Shown piece by piece: positions 10,741 through 44,353 of a stretch of 64,000 bases of DNA; the stretch's first letter is position 1; the number at the start of each line of letters is the position of its first letter. The translations under genes and the position numbers were made by a program. The notes below the pieces were generated by a model. That model did no database searches and was not told the DNA's origin. It saw only the letters and a list, made by a program, of their open reading frames with translations. Source of the DNA: an uncultured Pelagibacteraceae bacterium (GTDB taxonomy: Bacteria; Pseudomonadota; Alphaproteobacteria; Pelagibacterales; Pelagibacteraceae); NCBI GenBank assembly GCA_902583645.1, contig CACHWQ010000007.1, positions 1-64,000 of the forward strand. Direction: 5' to 3'.

Positions 10741-12813
10741 TTATATCGATGCTTGTTTAATTGAAAGTTTTACTTTTCCTCTATCAAAACCGATTACTTT
10801 AACTTTAACTTCATCGCCTTCTTTTACAACATCTGTTACTTTGGCAACTCTTTTATCAGCAAGTTCAGAAATGTGAACAAGTCCGTCTTGTTTGCCTAAG
10901 AAGTTAACAAATGCACCAAACTCCATAATTTTCATAACTTTACCGTTATAAATTTTGTTTAATTCAGCTTTCGCAGTTAAGTCTTTAATCATTTGCATAG
11001 CTTTGTTTCTAGAGTCTTCGTCTGGAGCTGCAACTGTTACAACGCCTTCGTCATTAACGTCAACTTTTGCTCCTGATTTTTCAACAATCTCTCTTATTGT
11101 TGCTCCACCTTTACCAATCACTGTTGCAATATCTTTTTTATCAACAGTAATTTTTTCCATCTTAGGTGTATGTTTTCCAACATTGTCTCTTGATTTAGCT
11201 AAAGCTTTATTCATCTCCCCAAGAATATGAATTCTTCCATCTTTTGCTTGTTTTAAAGCCTGTTCCATTATTTCAAATGTTATTCCTGTAATTTTAATAT
11301 CCATTTGAAGAGAAGTGATACCGTCTTTAGTTCCAGCAACTTTAAAATCCATATCACCTAAATGATCTTCATCTCCAAGAATATCTGATAGAACACTAAA
11401 ATCGTCACCTTCTTTGATTAATCCCATTGCAATACCTGCTACTGGCTCTTTTATTGGAACTCCCGCATCCATTAGTGCTAGAGATGAACCACAAACAGTT
11501 GCCATCGAAGAAGATCCATTAGACTCGGTTATTTCAGATACAATTCTAAATGTATAAGGAAAACTTTCTTTTGATGGCAATGAGGAATTTATTGCCCTCC
11601 AAGCAAGTTTACCATGACCAATTTCTCTTCTACCAGTTCCAATTCTTCCAGTTTCTCCAACCGAAAATGGTGGAAAATTATAGTGAAGCATAAATCTCTG
11701 CCTTTGAAGGCCATCTAAACTTTCAATTCTTTGTTCATCATCTGAAGTTCCGAGCGTTGTAGTAACAATTGCTTGTGTTTCTCCTCTTGTAAAAAGAGCA
11801 GAACCATGAACTCTAGGTAGTATACCTACTTCGCACATTATTGGTCTCACGTCTGCAAGTCCTCTTCCATCAATTCTATTTTTATTTTTAAGAATATCTG
11901 TTCTTACAATTCTTTTTTCTAAGTTTTTAAGCTCATGATTTACATCTAATTCAGTATAATTTTCATCCCCTTCATAAAGTTTTTTAGCTCTTTCAGTAAT
12001 GTCGGAAATTTGATTTGATCTATCCTGTTTATCTCTTGTAGAAAAAGCCTTATTTAGATCTTTAGTAAATTCTTTCTCCAACTTCTTCTTAACTTCTGAT
12101 AAATCTTTTTTCTCTACAACCCAATCTGGTTTTCTACATTCCTTAGCTAGTTCCTCTATCATTTTTATTATAGGGACGAAATTTTCATGACCAAATTTTA
12201 CTGCATTTAACATTTCTTCCTCTGATAATCCATTTGCTTCAGACTCAACCATTAGAACTGCATCTTTAGTTCCCGCAACAACTAAATCCAATTTAGATTT
12301 TTCTAATTCTACTTTTGATGGATTTAATATATATTTGCCATCTATAAAGCCAACTCTTGAAGCTCCTACAGGACCTAAAAATGGCATTCCTGAAATTGCT
12401 AATGCTGCTGATGACGCAATAATTGACAAAATATCTGCTTCATTTTCTTTATCATAAGAAATTACGGTTGGTAACAATTGTACCTCATTTTTAAATTCAT
12501 TTGGAAACAATGGTCTTATAGGTCTATCAATTAATCGGGAAATTAAAGTTTCACTTTCCGTGGGCCTTGCCTCTCTTTTGAAATACCCCCCAGGTATCTT
12601 TCCTGCTGCATAATATTTTTCCTGATAATTTACTGATAATGGAAAGTAATCAACTTCTGGATTTACTTTTTTAGCTCCAACAACAGTAGCTAATACAACG
12701 GTCTCACCGCACGTGGCTATAACGGCTCCATCAGCTTGACGAGCTATTTTTCCTGTCTCTAATTTAATTTTTTTTCCTGCTATCTCAATTTCTTTTTTAA
12801 ACTCTTTAAACAT
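10741..12813 (-). CDS. pnp: Pnp, polynucleotide phosphorylase
   Basis: A 690-residue 3'-5' phosphorolytic exoribonuclease of the RNA degradosome. Domain order: RNase PH domain 1 (residues ~10-140), an all-alpha linker, RNase PH domain 2 (~320-540, with the GERSAMA-like core), a KH domain with [11 protein letters not shown] near residue 565, and an S1 domain ([15 protein letters not shown]) near the C-terminus. It follows rpsO by 3 bases on the minus strand, the near-universal rpsO-pnp order. Its length is normal for an alphaproteobacterium, perhaps slightly trimmed at the C-terminus. Confidence 0.97.
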
Positions 12814-12816
12814 TTT

Positions 12817-13065
12817 TTACTTTCTTAAGTTAAGTTTACTTATAACATTTTTGTATGAATCTAATTTATTTCTTTTTAGATAATCTAATAATTTTTTCCT
12901 TCTATTAACTGCTTTTAATAAGCCAACAGATGAATGTTTGTCTTTTTTATATAAATTCATATGCTTGGATAAATTTTCTATCTTTTCTGTTAATAACGCT
13001 ATTTGAACTTCTGAGGACCCAGTATCTTTTTCGTTAATTGCTACATCCTTTACTTTTTTACTCAT
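12817..13065 (-). CDS. rpsO: Ribosomal protein uS15
   Basis: An 82-residue small-subunit protein that binds 16S rRNA helices 20-22 early in assembly. The core signature DTGSSEVQIALLTEKIENLSKHM and the basic LLKAVNRRKKLLDYLKR segment are both clear. It is slightly shorter than the usual 89 residues, missing a little at the C-terminus. The start overlaps the end of rbfA. truB, which usually sits between rbfA and rpsO, is absent. Confidence 0.96.
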   Translation of the reverse strand: MSKKVKDVAINEKDTGSSEVQIALLTEKIENLSKHMNLYKKDKHSSVGLLKAVNRRKKLLDYLKRNKLDSYKNVISKLNLRK

Positions 13066-13444
13066 ATTTTTCCTGACTGTTAGTTTTTTTAATTAAATTT
13101 TCTATTTTTTCTGCATAGTCGAAGGATTCATCTTTTACAAAAAATATTTTTGGAAGAAATTTTGTTGAAATTTTTTTCGATAGAACTTTTCTAACTATGA
13201 AAGAGAATTCCTTAAGAATATCTATTATTTCATCAGAGTTTTTGCCTCCTAGTGGAAGAACAAAAGCTTTGGCAGATTTTAAATCCGGACTCATTCTTAC
13301 CTCGGTCACTGTTATGCTGCTAGTCTCGATATTAGGTATCTTAGCTTCTCCTCTCATAAATATAGTGCCCAAAGCTTGTTTTATCATTTCGCCTACTCTT
13401 AATTGTCTTTGAGTAAGAGTTCTACTGTTTTTTTTCGTTCTCAT
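13058..13444 (-). CDS. rbfA: RbfA, 30S ribosome-binding factor
   Basis: A 128-residue cold-shock/assembly factor acting on the 5' helix of 16S rRNA. The KH-type fold shows the family pattern RQLRVGEMIKQALGTI near the N-terminus, then ITVTEVRMSPDLKSAKAFV and the C-terminal PKIFFVKDESFDYAEKIENLI. The start overlaps the infB stop (ATGA), and the 3' end overlaps the rpsO start by 8 bases, so infB, rbfA and rpsO are translationally linked. Confidence 0.95.
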   Translation of the reverse strand: MRTKKNSRTLTQRQLRVGEMIKQALGTIFMRGEAKIPNIETSSITVTEVRMSPDLKSAKAFVLPLGGKNSDEIIDILKEFSFIVRKVLSKKISTKFLPKIFFVKDESFDYAEKIENLIKKTNSQEKYE

Positions 13445-15651
13445 ATAGTTCTTTCAGTGATTTTAGAGTTAAATACCTCAATTATATCTTTTTTTTGAAA
13501 ATCATTAAAATCTTTGAGAGTTATACCGCACTCTAACCCTGCAGCGACTTGTTTTGCCTGATTTTTTTCTCTAAAAATACTATTTATTTTTCCATTGTAA
13601 ATTATCGCACCATCTCTAATTAATCTAGCATTTGAGTCGTTTAAAATTTCTCCATCTAATACTTTTGATCCAGCAACTTTACCAACTTTAGATACCTTAA
13701 ATATTTCAAGGATTTCTGCGGAGCCAATCACTTGTTCTTCAACGTCTGGCGATAACAAACCAGACATCTTTTTTTTAATAAAGTCTAACACCTCATAAAT
13801 TATATTATAAGAAGAGATGGATATTTTTTCTTGTTCAGCTAGTTTTTTTGCTTCTTTAGTAGGCTTAACGTTAAAAGCAATTAACAAAGCTTTTGAAGCT
13901 TTGGCTAAAGTAACATCTGTTTCTGTAACCATCCCGATATCAGACAAAATTATTTTTGGTTTTATTTCATCATGTTTTATTTGGATAATTGCATTTTTAA
14001 TAGCTTCAGATGATCCGTGCACATCTGATTTAATTATTATATTTAATTCTTCAGAAATTTTATCTTTAAATGCTGATTCTTGTGTGGCGAAATTTAAAGG
14101 ATTTTTCCCGATTTTTGATTCCTGGATTCTAACATCACATAACGACTTTGCTTCTTTTTCATTATCCAAAACAAGAAAATCATCTCCTGATTTTGATGCT
14201 CCATTAATACCCAAAACCTCTATTGGCGATGCTGGTGAAGCTTCGTCAATATTTTTTCCAATATCATTTATTATTGCTCTCACTTTTCCCCATTTTAATC
14301 CACTTACAAAATAGTCTCCTTTTTTTAAAGTTCCACTTGTAACAATTATGTTTGCTATTGGACCTCTTCCTATATCGATTTTAGACTCAAGAACAATTCC
14401 ATTTGCTTTTGTATCATAATCTGTTTTTAGATCTAAAAGTTCAGATTGAAGAATAATTGATTCAACAAGTTTTGTGAGATTATGTTTTGTTTTAGTTGAA
14501 ATTTCTACCATTAACGTATCTCCAGATAGCTCCTCAGCTATAAGCTCATATTCTAAAAGTTGATTTTTTATTTTTTGTGGATCAGCATCAGGGAGATCAC
14601 ATTTATTTATTGCTACAACAATCGGTACTTTTGCAGCTTTTGCGTGTTTGATAGACTCGATAGTTTGTGGCTTTACACCATCGTCTGCTGCAACTACTAA
14701 AACCACAATATCAGTGAGTTTTGATCCTCTAGCTCTCATTTCAGTGAATGCTGCATGTCCAGGCGTATCTATAAAAGTAATTTTATTTGAATTATGTTCG
14801 ATTTGATATGCGCCAATATGTTGAGTAATGCCTCCAAACTCACCAGAAACGACATTTGCTTTTCTTAAAACATCAAGCACTGAAGTTTTACCATGATCTA
14901 CATGACCCATAACTGTTACAATAGGTGGTCTACTTTTAAGGTTTTCAGACTTTAAATTTTTTATTTTTTTTATTATTTCCTCAGCTTTTTGCTCCTTTAT
15001 TGGATTATGTCCAAATTCCTTAACTAAATACTCAGCAGTATCAGAATCTATAGAATGATTTATTGTGGCTGTTACTCCCATTCCTAAAAGGTGTTTAATA
15101 ATACTGCCTGATTGCTCAGCCATTCTATTAGCTAACTCCCTAATAGTAATCACTTCTGTAATTTTAACATCTCTTTTTATTGGCTTTAATCTTTCTATAA
15201 ATTCCTCTTTTTGACTTTCTCTATTTTCTTTTTTTTTAGCTCTTTTTAATGAAGCCAAACTTCTAGCTCTGCCTTCATCTTCCCCACTTAACGCCCTGGA
15301 AACCGTAAGTTTAAGCTCTCTTCTTTTAGAACCAATTTTTCCTTTAATTTCCTTCTTTTCAGGATCAGCTTTTAATCTTTTTGTTGCTCTTTGTTCAGCA
15401 AGCTTTCTCTTTTCATAATCATTTGTTGTTGAGCTTTGTTTTTCAGTATTTAGTGGCTTAAATTTAGTACTAAAGTTTTTTTTTGGATATTGATCTGATC
15501 TATTTGAACTAAAAGGTTTTTTATTGGAAAATTTATTTTTTCTTTTTTCGATTACAACAGAATTTGTGCCTTGAGTTTTGGCTCTTTCAATATTGGTTAT
15601 AGATCTTTTTAAATTTCCTGACAGTTTCAATTTGGTTTTTTTCTTTTCCAT
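13441..15651 (-). CDS. infB: InfB, translation initiation factor IF-2
   Basis: A 736-residue GTPase that brings fMet-tRNA to the 30S subunit. A basic, low-complexity N-terminus (~170 residues) precedes the IF2_N domain ([20 protein letters not shown]). The G domain has G1 [10 protein letters not shown]2 [11 protein letters not shown]3 DTPGHAAF and G4 NKCD. Domains II, III and C2 follow, with a C-terminal KKGDIIE-like end. It is shorter than E. coli IF-2 because of the reduced N-terminus. It follows nusA by 10 bases. The ylxR gene that often lies between them is missing. Confidence 0.96.
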
Positions 15652-15661
15652 AAATCATCTT

Positions 15662-17215
15662 TCAATCTTTAAAAACTTTTTCTCTTGCAGACATAATTAA
15701 ATCATCAGCCTCTTTTTTTGATAAAGCAAAGTCTTCCAAATAACCTCTAATTTTTACCCTTTCTCCCTTCACAATATCATAGCTACCTGTTAATTCATCA
15801 GAGGCTAAATCAGCAAAGTCATTAAGAGTAAGTATTTTTTGCTCTCCGAGCGTAACCAGCATTCCGGGTGTTAATCCCTCATGATTAATTAAATTATTTT
15901 CTAAACCGAGTTCTTTTATTTTTTTAGATATTTCCTCTTGATCTTTCTTATAATACTCATTTGCTCTATCTAAAAGTTCCTTAGCTGTGTCCTCTTCTAT
16001 ACCCTCAATTTTTACCAAGTTTTCTACTGAAGAGTCTTTCAAGTCATCTATTGATGAAAAACCTTCTGCAACTAAAAGTTGGCCAAGAGTTTCATCCAGT
16101 TCTAAATTTTTTACAAAATTTTCAGTTTTCTCCTTAAATTCAGCTTGTCTTCTTTCAGAATCTTCTTGGTCAGTCATTATATTAATTTCGTAATTCATTA
16201 ATTTTGTAGCAAGTCTAACATTCTGACCTCTTCTTCCAATGGCTTTACTTAAATTTTCTTCAGTTAATATTACATCGAGTTTTTTATTGTTATTATCAAC
16301 ATTTACTCTTTGAACTTCTGCAGGCGATAATGCATTAGAAACAATAACAGCTGGATCTTCAGACCAATTAACAATATCAATTTTTTCACCTTGAAGTTCG
16401 TTTACAACCGCTTGAACTCTGCTTCCTCTCATCCCAACACACGCTCCAACCGGGTCTAATGAATTATCAATTGCTTTTACACATATTTTAGCTCTACTTC
16501 CGGGGTCTCTGGCGGAAGAAATAATTTCTATTAAGCCATCATATATTTCTGGAACTTCTTGAATAAAAAGCTTTTCCATAAACTTTGGATGTGCTCTAGA
16601 TAAAAAAATTTGTTGTCCTCTAGGCTCTCTTCTTACATCGCTACAATAAGCTTTCACACGATCTCCTGCTTTAATATTTTCTCGTGGGATCATTTCGTTT
16701 TTTTGGATTATTGCCTCTGTTCTCCCTAAATCAACAATTACGTTTCCAAATTCAAGTCTTTTTACAATTCCACTTAATATAGTATCTTTTTTATCTATAA
16801 AATCGTTAAACTGTCTTTCTCTCTCAGCTTCTCTAACATTAAAACTAATTACTTGTTTTGCAGTTTGTGCTGCGATTCGACCAAAATCAAAAGATGGCAA
16901 AGGTTGAAGTATTGAGTCTCCAATTTTTTTCTCTTTGTTTTCATCGCTCAATTTCAATGCATCATTTAAGCTTATTTCTGTATTTAAATTTTCTGGCTTT
17001 TCAGATATCACTAATTTTCTAAATATTCCGATATCTCCATTTTCTCTGTTTATTTGAACTTCTATTTCATTTTCATATCCAAATTTTGATTTGGCTGCTT
17101 TTGCTATACCGGTTTCCATTGAATTTATTATTAATTCTTTATCAATAGATTTTTCCAAAGCTACTGATTCTGCTATTCTTATTAATTCTAGTTTATCAGC
17201 TCTACGATTTAGCAT
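15662..17215 (-). CDS. nusA: NusA, transcription termination/antitermination factor
   Basis: A 517-residue RNA polymerase-binding factor affecting pausing, termination and antitermination. Domain order: N-terminal domain (ADKLELIRIAESVALEKSI), S1 (ILSGIVKRLEFGNVIVDLG), KH1 and KH2 (RVQAVVNELQGEKIDIV; KAIGRRGQNVRLAT), and two acidic helix-hairpin-helix repeats at the C-terminus. I chose the ATG at 17215, which has an SD-like GGAAGG at 17221-17226. The upstream in-frame extension runs through a terminator hairpin and is not NusA-like. rimP, normally upstream, is absent. Confidence 0.95.
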   Translation of the reverse strand: MLNRRADKLELIRIAESVALEKSIDKELIINSMETGIAKAAKSKFGYENEIEVQINRENGDIGIFRKLVISEKPENLNTEISLNDALKLSDENKEKKIGDSILQPLPSFDFGRIAAQTAKQVISFNVREAERERQFNDFIDKKDTILSGIVKRLEFGNVIVDLGRTEAIIQKNEMIPRENIKAGDRVKAYCSDVRREPRGQQIFLSRAHPKFMEKLFIQEVPEIYDGLIEIISSARDPGSRAKICVKAIDNSLDPVGACVGMRGSRVQAVVNELQGEKIDIVNWSEDPAVIVSNALSPAEVQRVNVDNNNKKLDVILTEENLSKAIGRRGQNVRLATKLMNYEINIMTDQEDSERRQAEFKEKTENFVKNLELDETLGQLLVAEGFSSIDDLKDSSVENLVKIEGIEEDTAKELLDRANEYYKKDQEEISKKIKELGLENNLINHEGLTPGMLVTLGEQKILTLNDFADLASDELTGSYDIVKGERVKIRGYLEDFALSKKEADDLIMSAREKVFKD

Positions 17216-17226
17216 TTTTTCCTTCC

Positions 17227-17253
17227 AAAAAAAAATGGGCCGAAGCCCATTTT
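17227..17253 (-). terminator. UUCG-capped intrinsic terminator between metK and nusA
   Basis: On the minus strand, AAAATGGGC and GCCCATTTT form a perfect 9-bp stem closed by a C(UUCG)G tetraloop, followed by a run of nine T. It ends directly before the nusA SD, so it either terminates lnt-metK transcripts or attenuates nusA. Confidence 0.85.
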
Positions 17254-17275
17254 GATATTTCAATAATGTTAGTTG

Positions 17276-17303
17276 AATATAGGTATTTTTATTAATTTTT
17301 CAA
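17276..17303 (-). promoter_or_regulatory. Candidate nusA promoter
   Basis: On the minus strand TTGAAA (17298-17303) and TATATT (17276-17281) are separated by 16 bases, just after the metK stop. If used, transcription would start near 17269, upstream of the terminator hairpin. The same hexamer pair and spacing occurs upstream of rho. Confidence 0.4.
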
Positions 17304-17309
17304 CTTTAT

Positions 17310-18473
17310 TTACTTCTGAAAAACTGATGCTTTATCAGTTTTTTCCCAAGAAAATGATCCATCAGTGCCTGGGTCCCTACCAAAATGTCCATAGGCAGCT
17401 GATTTTTCATATATTGGTTTATTTAATCCTAACATTTCTCTAATTCCTCTTGGGCTTAGATCAAAATTTTCTTTTATAAGTTTCTCAACATGAAGATTTT
17501 TTTCCTCATCATTACTGAATAAGTCCACATAAATAGATAAAGGTTTTGATACTCCTATTGCATAAGCTAATTGTATCAAACATTTGTCCGCAATTTTTGA
17601 TGCCACAATATTTTTCGCTAAATATCTAGATGCATATGCTGCAGACCTATCAACTTTAGTTGGATCTTTACCTGAAAAAGCTCCACCACCATGAGGTGCT
17701 GCTCCACCGTATGTATCTACAATTATTTTTCTTCCAGTTAAACCACTGTCTCCATCTGGTCCACCAATTACAAAATTTCCAGTGGGGTTAATATATATTT
17801 CATTTTCATCAAGATCCCCAAGTAAGTTTTTTGGAATAGATTTTTCAATATAAGGCATACATAGTTTTTTTACTTGAGCTAAGTTCACATCTTTTGAATG
17901 CTGTGTAGAAATCACAACTGATTTTACAGCTTTTGGTACACCATCTTTATATTCTATAGTAATTTGACTTTTCGAGTCTGGTTCTATCCCTTTAAGGTTT
18001 CCAGATTTTCTATCTTCAGCCATAAGTCTTAAAATTCTATGTGAAAAATGAATTGGGGCTGGCATAAGTACATCAGTCTCGTTACATGCATAGCCGAACA
18101 TTATTCCTTGATCTCCAGCACCTTCATCTTTATTTCCAGAAGAGTCAACACCCATAGCTATATCAGCTGATTGAGAGTGTAAATGACACTCAATTTTGGT
18201 TGCGTCCTTATAAGTAAAACCTTCCTGGTCATAACCGATGTCTTTAATACAATCTCTTACTTTAGAGATTAATTCATCTTTTTTAATATCAGGTCCTCTA
18301 GTTTCTCCTGCTAAAACGACTTTGTTTGTGGTTGTCAATGTTTCGCATGCTACCCTTGCTTGGGGCTCCATGCCTAAATAGGTATCTACAACCATATCTG
18401 AAATTCTATCGCAAACTTTATCTGGGTGACCTTCTGATACAGATTCACTAGTGAACAAATAATCTTTTTTCAT
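17310..18473 (-). CDS. metK: MetK, S-adenosylmethionine synthetase
   Basis: A 387-residue enzyme making S-adenosylmethionine from ATP and methionine. Visible are the N-terminal [17 protein letters not shown], the [16 protein letters not shown] hexapeptide region, the P-loop-like [19 protein letters not shown], and the C-terminal GHFGRD. It starts 1 base after the lnt stop, so it is in the lnt operon. The HTH regulator and trmB that often flank metK in alphas are missing. No SAM riboswitch can fit upstream because there is no leader. Confidence 0.97.
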
Positions 18474-43799: not shown

Positions 43800-44345
43800 A
43801 CAAGTTTTAAAATTTATTATTTCATAGAAAAATTTAATTTAAAGGACTTATCAAAAATTAACAAATCAATAAATATAATATTTAGAAACTACAAAAAAAA
43901 TGATTTTAGTGATGACTTAATTAAGGTAAGAAATTTATGCAGAAAAAGAGGGCACAGTATCTATTTATCAAACAATATAAAACTAGCGTCAAAACTTAAG
44001 TTAGACGGGGTTTATTTACCATCCTTTAACAAAAGGCTTATTTACAAAAATTTGAATTTAAGAAAGGAATTTAAAATTATTGGTTCAGCTCATAATATTT
44101 CTGAAATTAAAATAAAAGAAATGCAAAATTGTGAAGAAATATTTATAAGCCCTATATTTGAGACATCAAAACATAGAAGCCATTTAGATATTTTGAAATT
44201 TAATTTGATAGCAAAAGAGACAAAAAATAAAATCGTAGCTCTTGGTGGTATAAATGATCAAAATTTGAAGAAAATTAATCTTACGAAATCTAGAGGTGTG
44301 GCTTCTATTTCTTGGATAAAAAAAAACGGCCTAAATAAAATTTAG
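43794..44345 (+). CDS. thiE: ThiE/TenI-like thiamine-phosphate synthase family protein
   Basis: 183 residues with a TIM-barrel pattern of the ThiE/TenI family. Visible are LKLDGVYLPSF (corresponding to ADGVHLGQ), IIGSAHNISEIKI, EIFISPIFETSKH (the SPIFxT block) and IVALGGINDQNLKKI (the phosphate-binding GGI). ThiE joins the thiazole and pyrimidine moieties. Some catalytic residues look altered, so TenI-like or divergent function is possible. A terminator hairpin overlaps its 3' end. The first codons form ATGCAT with the divergent yggS start. Confidence 0.72.
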   Translation: MHTSFKIYYFIEKFNLKDLSKINKSINIIFRNYKKNDFSDDLIKVRNLCRKRGHSIYLSNNIKLASKLKLDGVYLPSFNKRLIYKNLNLRKEFKIIGSAHNISEIKIKEMQNCEEIFISPIFETSKHRSHLDILKFNLIAKETKNKIVALGGINDQNLKKINLTKSRGVASISWIKKNGLNKI

Positions 44346-44353
44346 GCCGTTTT
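44323..44353. terminator. Bidirectional intrinsic terminator between thiE and the porin
   Basis: A perfect 13-bp stem (AAAACGGCCTAAA with TTTAGGCCGTTTT) around a 5-base TAAAA loop, with A-rich sequence on the left and T-rich sequence on the right. It can terminate both convergent genes. Its left arm is inside the end of thiE. Confidence 0.9.

Follow-up and report, generated by a model that had tools for sequence, protein, structure and literature searches.

A conserved terminator hairpin in front of nusA in SAR11 bacteria, probably a form of the rimP-leader attenuator

Leader attenuators of the nusA operon

Naville and Gautheret (2010) described the rimP-leader, a terminator whose stem contains a conserved GGGc...gCCC motif and is followed by a U-stretch; it has no antiterminator, precedes rimP-nusA-infB and lies 4–130 nt from the first gene (PMC2965389). 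NusA, or possibly RimP, was suggested as its effector (PMC2965389). In B. subtilis, nusA is controlled through termination in the leader, which NusA stimulates and which limits transcription into the operon (reviewed in PMC12288461), and NusA of E. coli controls the operon that encodes it (PMC6511841). RNA-seq of the S. agalactiae rimP-nusA-infB operon revealed transcripts that end 31 nt past the start, with short and long transcripts arising from one start, and feedback by NusA was proposed (PMC4448216).

The study of Pelagibacter RNAs by Meyer et al. (2009) makes no mention of nusA or metK, and no prior report of a nusA leader in SAR11 was found in the open literature. An earlier note on a stretch of SAR11 DNA (64,000 nucleotides, hereafter the window) described a UUCG hairpin and a T9 tract adjoining the nusA Shine–Dalgarno (SD) sequence, and suggested negative feedback by NusA. 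The note overlooked two points: such leaders form a known family, and rimP is missing from the lineage.

Anatomy of the SAR11 nusA leader

The identities of the lnt-metK and nusA-infB-rbfA-rpsO-pnp genes in the window were confirmed with NCBIfam. The leader and its surroundings comprise the following features, in the order of transcription.

17310..18473, minus strand: metK, the upstream gene, its stop codon 56 nt 5′ of the hairpin
17298..17303, minus strand: −35 box (TTGAAA) of the leader promoter; among the 129 distinct genus leaders with a recognised −10 box, 124 show TTGAAA/TTGAAT or TTGAT- at the corresponding spacing
17276..17281, minus strand: −10 box TATATT; TATATT in 127/130 and TATAAT in 2/130 distinct leaders, nearly always 25–28 nt 5′ of TGGGC (127 leaders; nearer in two)
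17227..17269, minus strand: predicted terminated leader RNA of ~43 nt, from the putative start (the A in ACATT, 7 nt 3′ of the −10 box) to the end of T9
17232..17253, minus strand: terminator hairpin AAAATGGGC-TTCG-GCCCATTTT; TGGGC-N4-GCCCA in 150/150 genus nusA loci
17227..17235, minus strand: T9 tract; T9 in 125/130 and T10 in 5/130 distinct leaders
17221..17226, minus strand: SD sequence GGAAGG, adjoining the T-tract; GGAG, AGGA or GGAA after the T-tract in 89/130 leaders
15662..17215, minus strand: nusA, first gene 3′ of the leader (TIGR01953, 380 bits)
10741..15651, minus strand: infB-rbfA-rpsO-pnp, downstream, tightly packed or overlapping and nearly gapless, with no ylxR or truB between

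The hairpin (AAAATGGGC-UUCG-GCCCATTTT in the RNA, 17253–17232 on the minus strand) has a 9-bp stem with four G-C pairs, and the T9 tract (17235–17227, minus strand) ends 11 nt 5′ of the nusA ATG, adjoining GGAAGG. The sequence bears out the earlier description, except that four T's of the T9 tract belong to the 3′ base of the stem as well and are counted twice in '9-bp stem + T9'. From the metK stop at 17310, the minus strand reads TTGAAA, 16 nt, TATATT, ACATTATTG..., hairpin, T9, GGAAGG and the ATG at 17215; from promoter to hairpin it reads TTGAAA-16-TATATT...AACATTATTGAAATATCAAAATGGGCTTCGGCCCATTTTTTTTTGGAAGGAAAAAATG. The promoter (17303–17276, minus strand) is sigma-70-like and scores 10/12. 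Promoter-like sites are no more numerous in total than expected by chance (76 found versus 87 expected); the one in the nusA leader is conserved. The motif ACATTnTTGAA is also conserved among genus leaders and, together with the promoter position, provides the basis for the putative start.

The candidate promoter that had been proposed at 17276–17303 is conserved and always 5′ of the hairpin. The sequence also agrees with the claim that no promoter fits between the T-tract and the ATG. The further claim, that every nusA transcript crosses the terminator, goes a little too far in its 'every', the start sites being putative. Within the operon (10741–17215), the usual slots of ylxR, between nusA and infB, and of truB, between rbfA and rpsO, are empty.

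Comparison with known leaders

The SAR11 element resembles the rimP-leader attenuator in its GGGC/GCCC stem, found at all loci of the genus and of other genera, in the T9 or T10 tract straight after the stem, in its position 11 nt before the first operon gene (nusA), inside the 4–130 nt range, and in having neither an antiterminator nor a larger conserved structure. Unlike the rimP-leader, it precedes nusA in a rimP-less lineage and is very short (~43 nt), and in a second SAR11 family the stem, GTGGG-N5-CCCAC, keeps GGG/CCC without the c-g closing pair. The B. subtilis leader likewise contains an intrinsic terminator, but rimP (ylxS) comes first there, the leader is ~180 nt long (PMC2965389) and NusA dependence has been shown. 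The start-proximal terminator of S. agalactiae shares its layout with the ~43-nt SAR11 leader; S. agalactiae has rimP, and the evidence there is RNA-seq, whereas here it is comparative.

Rfam model RF01770, a 102-nt model of the gammaproteobacterial rimP leader, represents the same operon and the same leader position. It scores 16.0 bits on the window against a gathering score of 47, so that the element goes unrecognised, and this counts against assignment to the rimP leaders. Across the order, 0/97 Pelagibacterales genomes exceeded the cut-off, and the only matches were sub-threshold, away from nusA and uninformative. Membership in the rimP-leader kind rests on the published motif description, the position and the operon, as the Rfam model misses the SAR11 element. 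No Rfam family matched the window at its gathering score, and searches at E-values up to 10 returned only sub-threshold matches. One of these, to the Burkholderia sRNA Bp1_162 (plus strand, 17228–17288; 27.3 bits versus a threshold of 50), rests on the TGGGC..GCCCA of the nusA hairpin read antisense.

Conservation across Pelagibacterales

The exact pattern ATGGGC-N4-GCCCATTTTTTT occurs in 162/201 genomes of the genus and in 27/29 near-complete ones, with one copy per genome; in G171, the ATGGGC pattern matches a single site on both strands. Of the two near-complete misses, G136 differs by an outer-stem A-to-G change alone (GTGGGC, locus L114), and nusA was not found in G078. A dispersed repeat was rejected, with GGGC-N4-GCCC at just two places in the genome.

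All 150 collected nusA loci of the genus carry TGGGC-N4-GCCCA followed by T9 or T10. The automatic filter passed 149 of them and missed L192 only for its GTG nusA start; it demanded TGGGC/GCCCA, yet this cost no nusA locus. Thirty of the 150 loci were fetched through the hairpin pattern itself and are hence not independent; the rest were retrieved through the NusA protein. The relatives that carry names are uncultured Pelagibacteraceae and Candidatus Pelagibacter ubique SCGC AAA795-E22, which places the window in SAR11. Among 130 distinct leaders, TGGGC/GCCCA is invariant, the loop takes 26 different tetranucleotides, unpaired positions beside the hairpin change to all bases, and the spacing between T-tract and ATG varies from 9 to 16.

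Other Pelagibacteraceae genera keep GGGC/GCCC and T9, with an interrupted outer stem at two loci (L123 and L127). In the second Pelagibacterales family, trmB rather than metK lies upstream of nusA, and a conserved promoter (CTTGATTTAT...GTGTATAGA) and the hairpin CAAAAGTGGG-N5-CCCACTTTTTTTTT still stand before nusA. The upstream gene differs and the hairpin stays; therefore, the hairpin belongs to nusA. When the stems are set in the GGG/CCC register, pair −2 is A-U in the genus (G-U in four), whereas the second family and the rimP leaders both have G-C there, the two sides of the pair having changed. The compensatory stem changes sought in the earlier note are accordingly absent inside the genus, with its invariant core, but appear between families. 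As judged by sequence comparison, the nusA leader hairpin is conserved order-wide and is neither a chance nor a local feature. The refuting condition set in the earlier note, a hairpin missing from relatives, therefore does not hold.

Loss of rimP and leaders in other alphaproteobacteria

RimP was not detected in Pelagibacterales: its N-domain (PF02576) was found in 0/61 genomes and its C-domain (PF17384) in 0/98, in searches whose controls worked. RimP is present in 170/192 alphaproteobacterial genomes. Upstream of rimP in other alphaproteobacteria, GTGGG..CCC[A/G]C followed by T's occurs at 19/30 loci. The SAR11 hairpin may share descent with these leaders, given the match in motif and operon position at those 19 loci; it is too short for phylogeny. 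Among rimP-less alphaproteobacteria, G424 (GGTGGGTTATCCCACC + T8) and G315 (GGTGGGTTATCCCGCC + T9) carry a terminator before nusA, and less similar ones precede nusA in G347, G402 and G439. The hairpin is absent from 11/30 rimP loci and from 8/13 other rimP-less alphaproteobacterial nusA loci, which speaks against the rimP-leader reading. The NusA tree is poorly resolved, and the number of rimP losses is not countable from it. At the nusA loci of G424 and G315 (L165 and L168), trmB is followed by GGTGGGTTATCCC[A/G]CC + T8–T9 and then nusA, an arrangement that resembles the second SAR11 family.

Strength of the hairpin

The nusA leader terminator is the best of six terminator-like sites in 18 kb, with by far the top combination of stem and T-tract; shuffled sequences yield 6.2 such sites, and the number by itself is no proof. 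The fold of the 121-nt leader has a z-score of −2.8. The hairpin alone has a predicted folding energy of −11.7 kcal/mol; two ordinary 3′ terminators from the genus are more stable (−15 to −16 kcal/mol). It dominates the ensemble both in RNA from its own promoter and in read-through RNA, with a median pair probability of 0.99, and folding of nusA leader RNAs revealed no antiterminator and no competing or ligand-sensing structure. According to these folding models, a competing RNA fold is therefore improbable, and modulation is likely to be by a protein.

A wider sample, comprising the window and 400 kb of genome G012, contains 14 hairpins with T7 or more in 464 kb. At three G012 loci, L086 (10894), L090 (16726) and L102 (17490; minus), a terminator is followed within ~10–30 nt by a −10-like box (TATAAT, TATAGA and TATAAA, respectively) and an ATG. 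This layout suggests leaderless or near-leaderless transcripts in a compact genome. Elsewhere in the window, a strong terminator with a 12-bp stem and T9 (44317–44351, minus strand) follows a porin-like ORF and faces a plus-strand gene; its stem shows compensated changes in relatives.

Proposed mechanism and alternatives

The SAR11 nusA leader is probably a form of the rimP-leader attenuator that now fronts nusA after the loss of rimP, in an operon that would be under NusA feedback. Support for this reading comes from the anatomy, the order-wide conservation, pairing at the RNA level, kinship with rimP leaders in motif and position, and the absence of RimP. As RimP is undetected in Pelagibacterales and the leader is kept on nusA, RimP is excluded as effector there and NusA feedback is favoured. 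The feedback suggested in the earlier note is a supported reading, being also the published explanation for matching rimP-leader attenuators (PMC2965389).

The start site, termination and its efficiency, and NusA as effector are the predicted parts of the mechanism. Polymerase would initiate at the conserved promoter (~17269) or come through from metK and, after ~43 nt had been transcribed, reach the UGGGC/GCCCA hairpin and U9. Some polymerases would terminate there, and the remainder would read through into nusA-infB-rbfA-rpsO-pnp. NusA, bound to RNA polymerase and the nascent hairpin, would increase the terminated fraction and thereby govern how much NusA is made and how strongly the operon is expressed, with no antiterminator RNA structure involved. 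More tentatively, the invariant UGGGC/GCCCA could be a sequence-specific recognition element for NusA, and the 43-nt leader a minimal terminator that senses NusA and has survived the loss of rimP; this extension is rather doubtful.

A tract of nine U's usually suffices for efficient intrinsic termination. The hairpin might thus terminate well without NusA, leaving little to regulate, and might instead be a fixed attenuator that, without feedback, sets a constant, lowered expression of the nusA operon and shields the operon against transcription arriving from metK. The lack of any antiterminator or ligand-sensing structure is consistent with such an element. A passive terminator needs no invariant stem, and the stem sequences of porin 3′ terminators vary freely among relatives, although this control is qualitative only, the porin being fast-evolving. 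In addition, NusA feedback on the nusA operon has been reported elsewhere (PMC12288461, PMC6511841), and a fixed attenuator appears unlikely.

It is very improbable that the hairpin simply ends the metK or trmB transcript as an ordinary 3′ terminator, with a nusA start overlapping it. The element does sit between two same-strand genes, and closely placed terminators are found elsewhere in the genus. The sampled terminators, however, lie mostly 19–30 nt 3′ of their gene, as opposed to 56 nt past the metK stop, a distance explained by the conserved promoter in between. The hairpin also persists under a changed upstream gene, and there is no −10 box between the T-tract and the nusA ATG, in contrast with L086, L090 and L102.

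The dyad is perfect and does not vary except at its centre, and it has no or almost no second copy in the genome; these features would also suit a DNA operator, in which TGGGC-N4-GCCCA is bound by a repressor just 3′ of the start site. The pattern of substitution points instead to RNA: the outer four A-T pairs show 12 substitutions among the 130 distinct leaders, all A-to-G and each keeping a G-U pair. Moreover, the one-sided T-tract is held at 9–10, and in alphaproteobacterial relatives the pairing partner of U is either A or G. An operator thus has very little to recommend it. An upstream ORF opened by the in-stem ATG, its translation coupled to nusA, can be dismissed almost entirely: ATGGGC does not vary within the genus, and in the window it begins a short frame, but some loops hold in-frame stops (TAAG in G004, TGAG in G145), the frame relative to nusA is not conserved and the second family has GTGGG.

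Significance

In 2010 the rimP leader was ranked as the most ubiquitous attenuator, and the choice between RimP and NusA as its effector was left undecided (PMC2965389). Here, a whole order carries the leader on nusA with RimP undetectable, which excludes RimP there and makes NusA the leading candidate effector. The Rfam rimP-leader model misses at least the SAR11 lineage. If the invariant stem is indeed a NusA recognition element, the RimP-less SAR11 bacteria would constitute a natural experiment that identifies NusA as the ancestral effector of this widespread leader. For SAR11, the commonest bacteria in the ocean, with few known regulators, the nusA leader provides a clear candidate for a feedback circuit controlling core transcription and translation genes.
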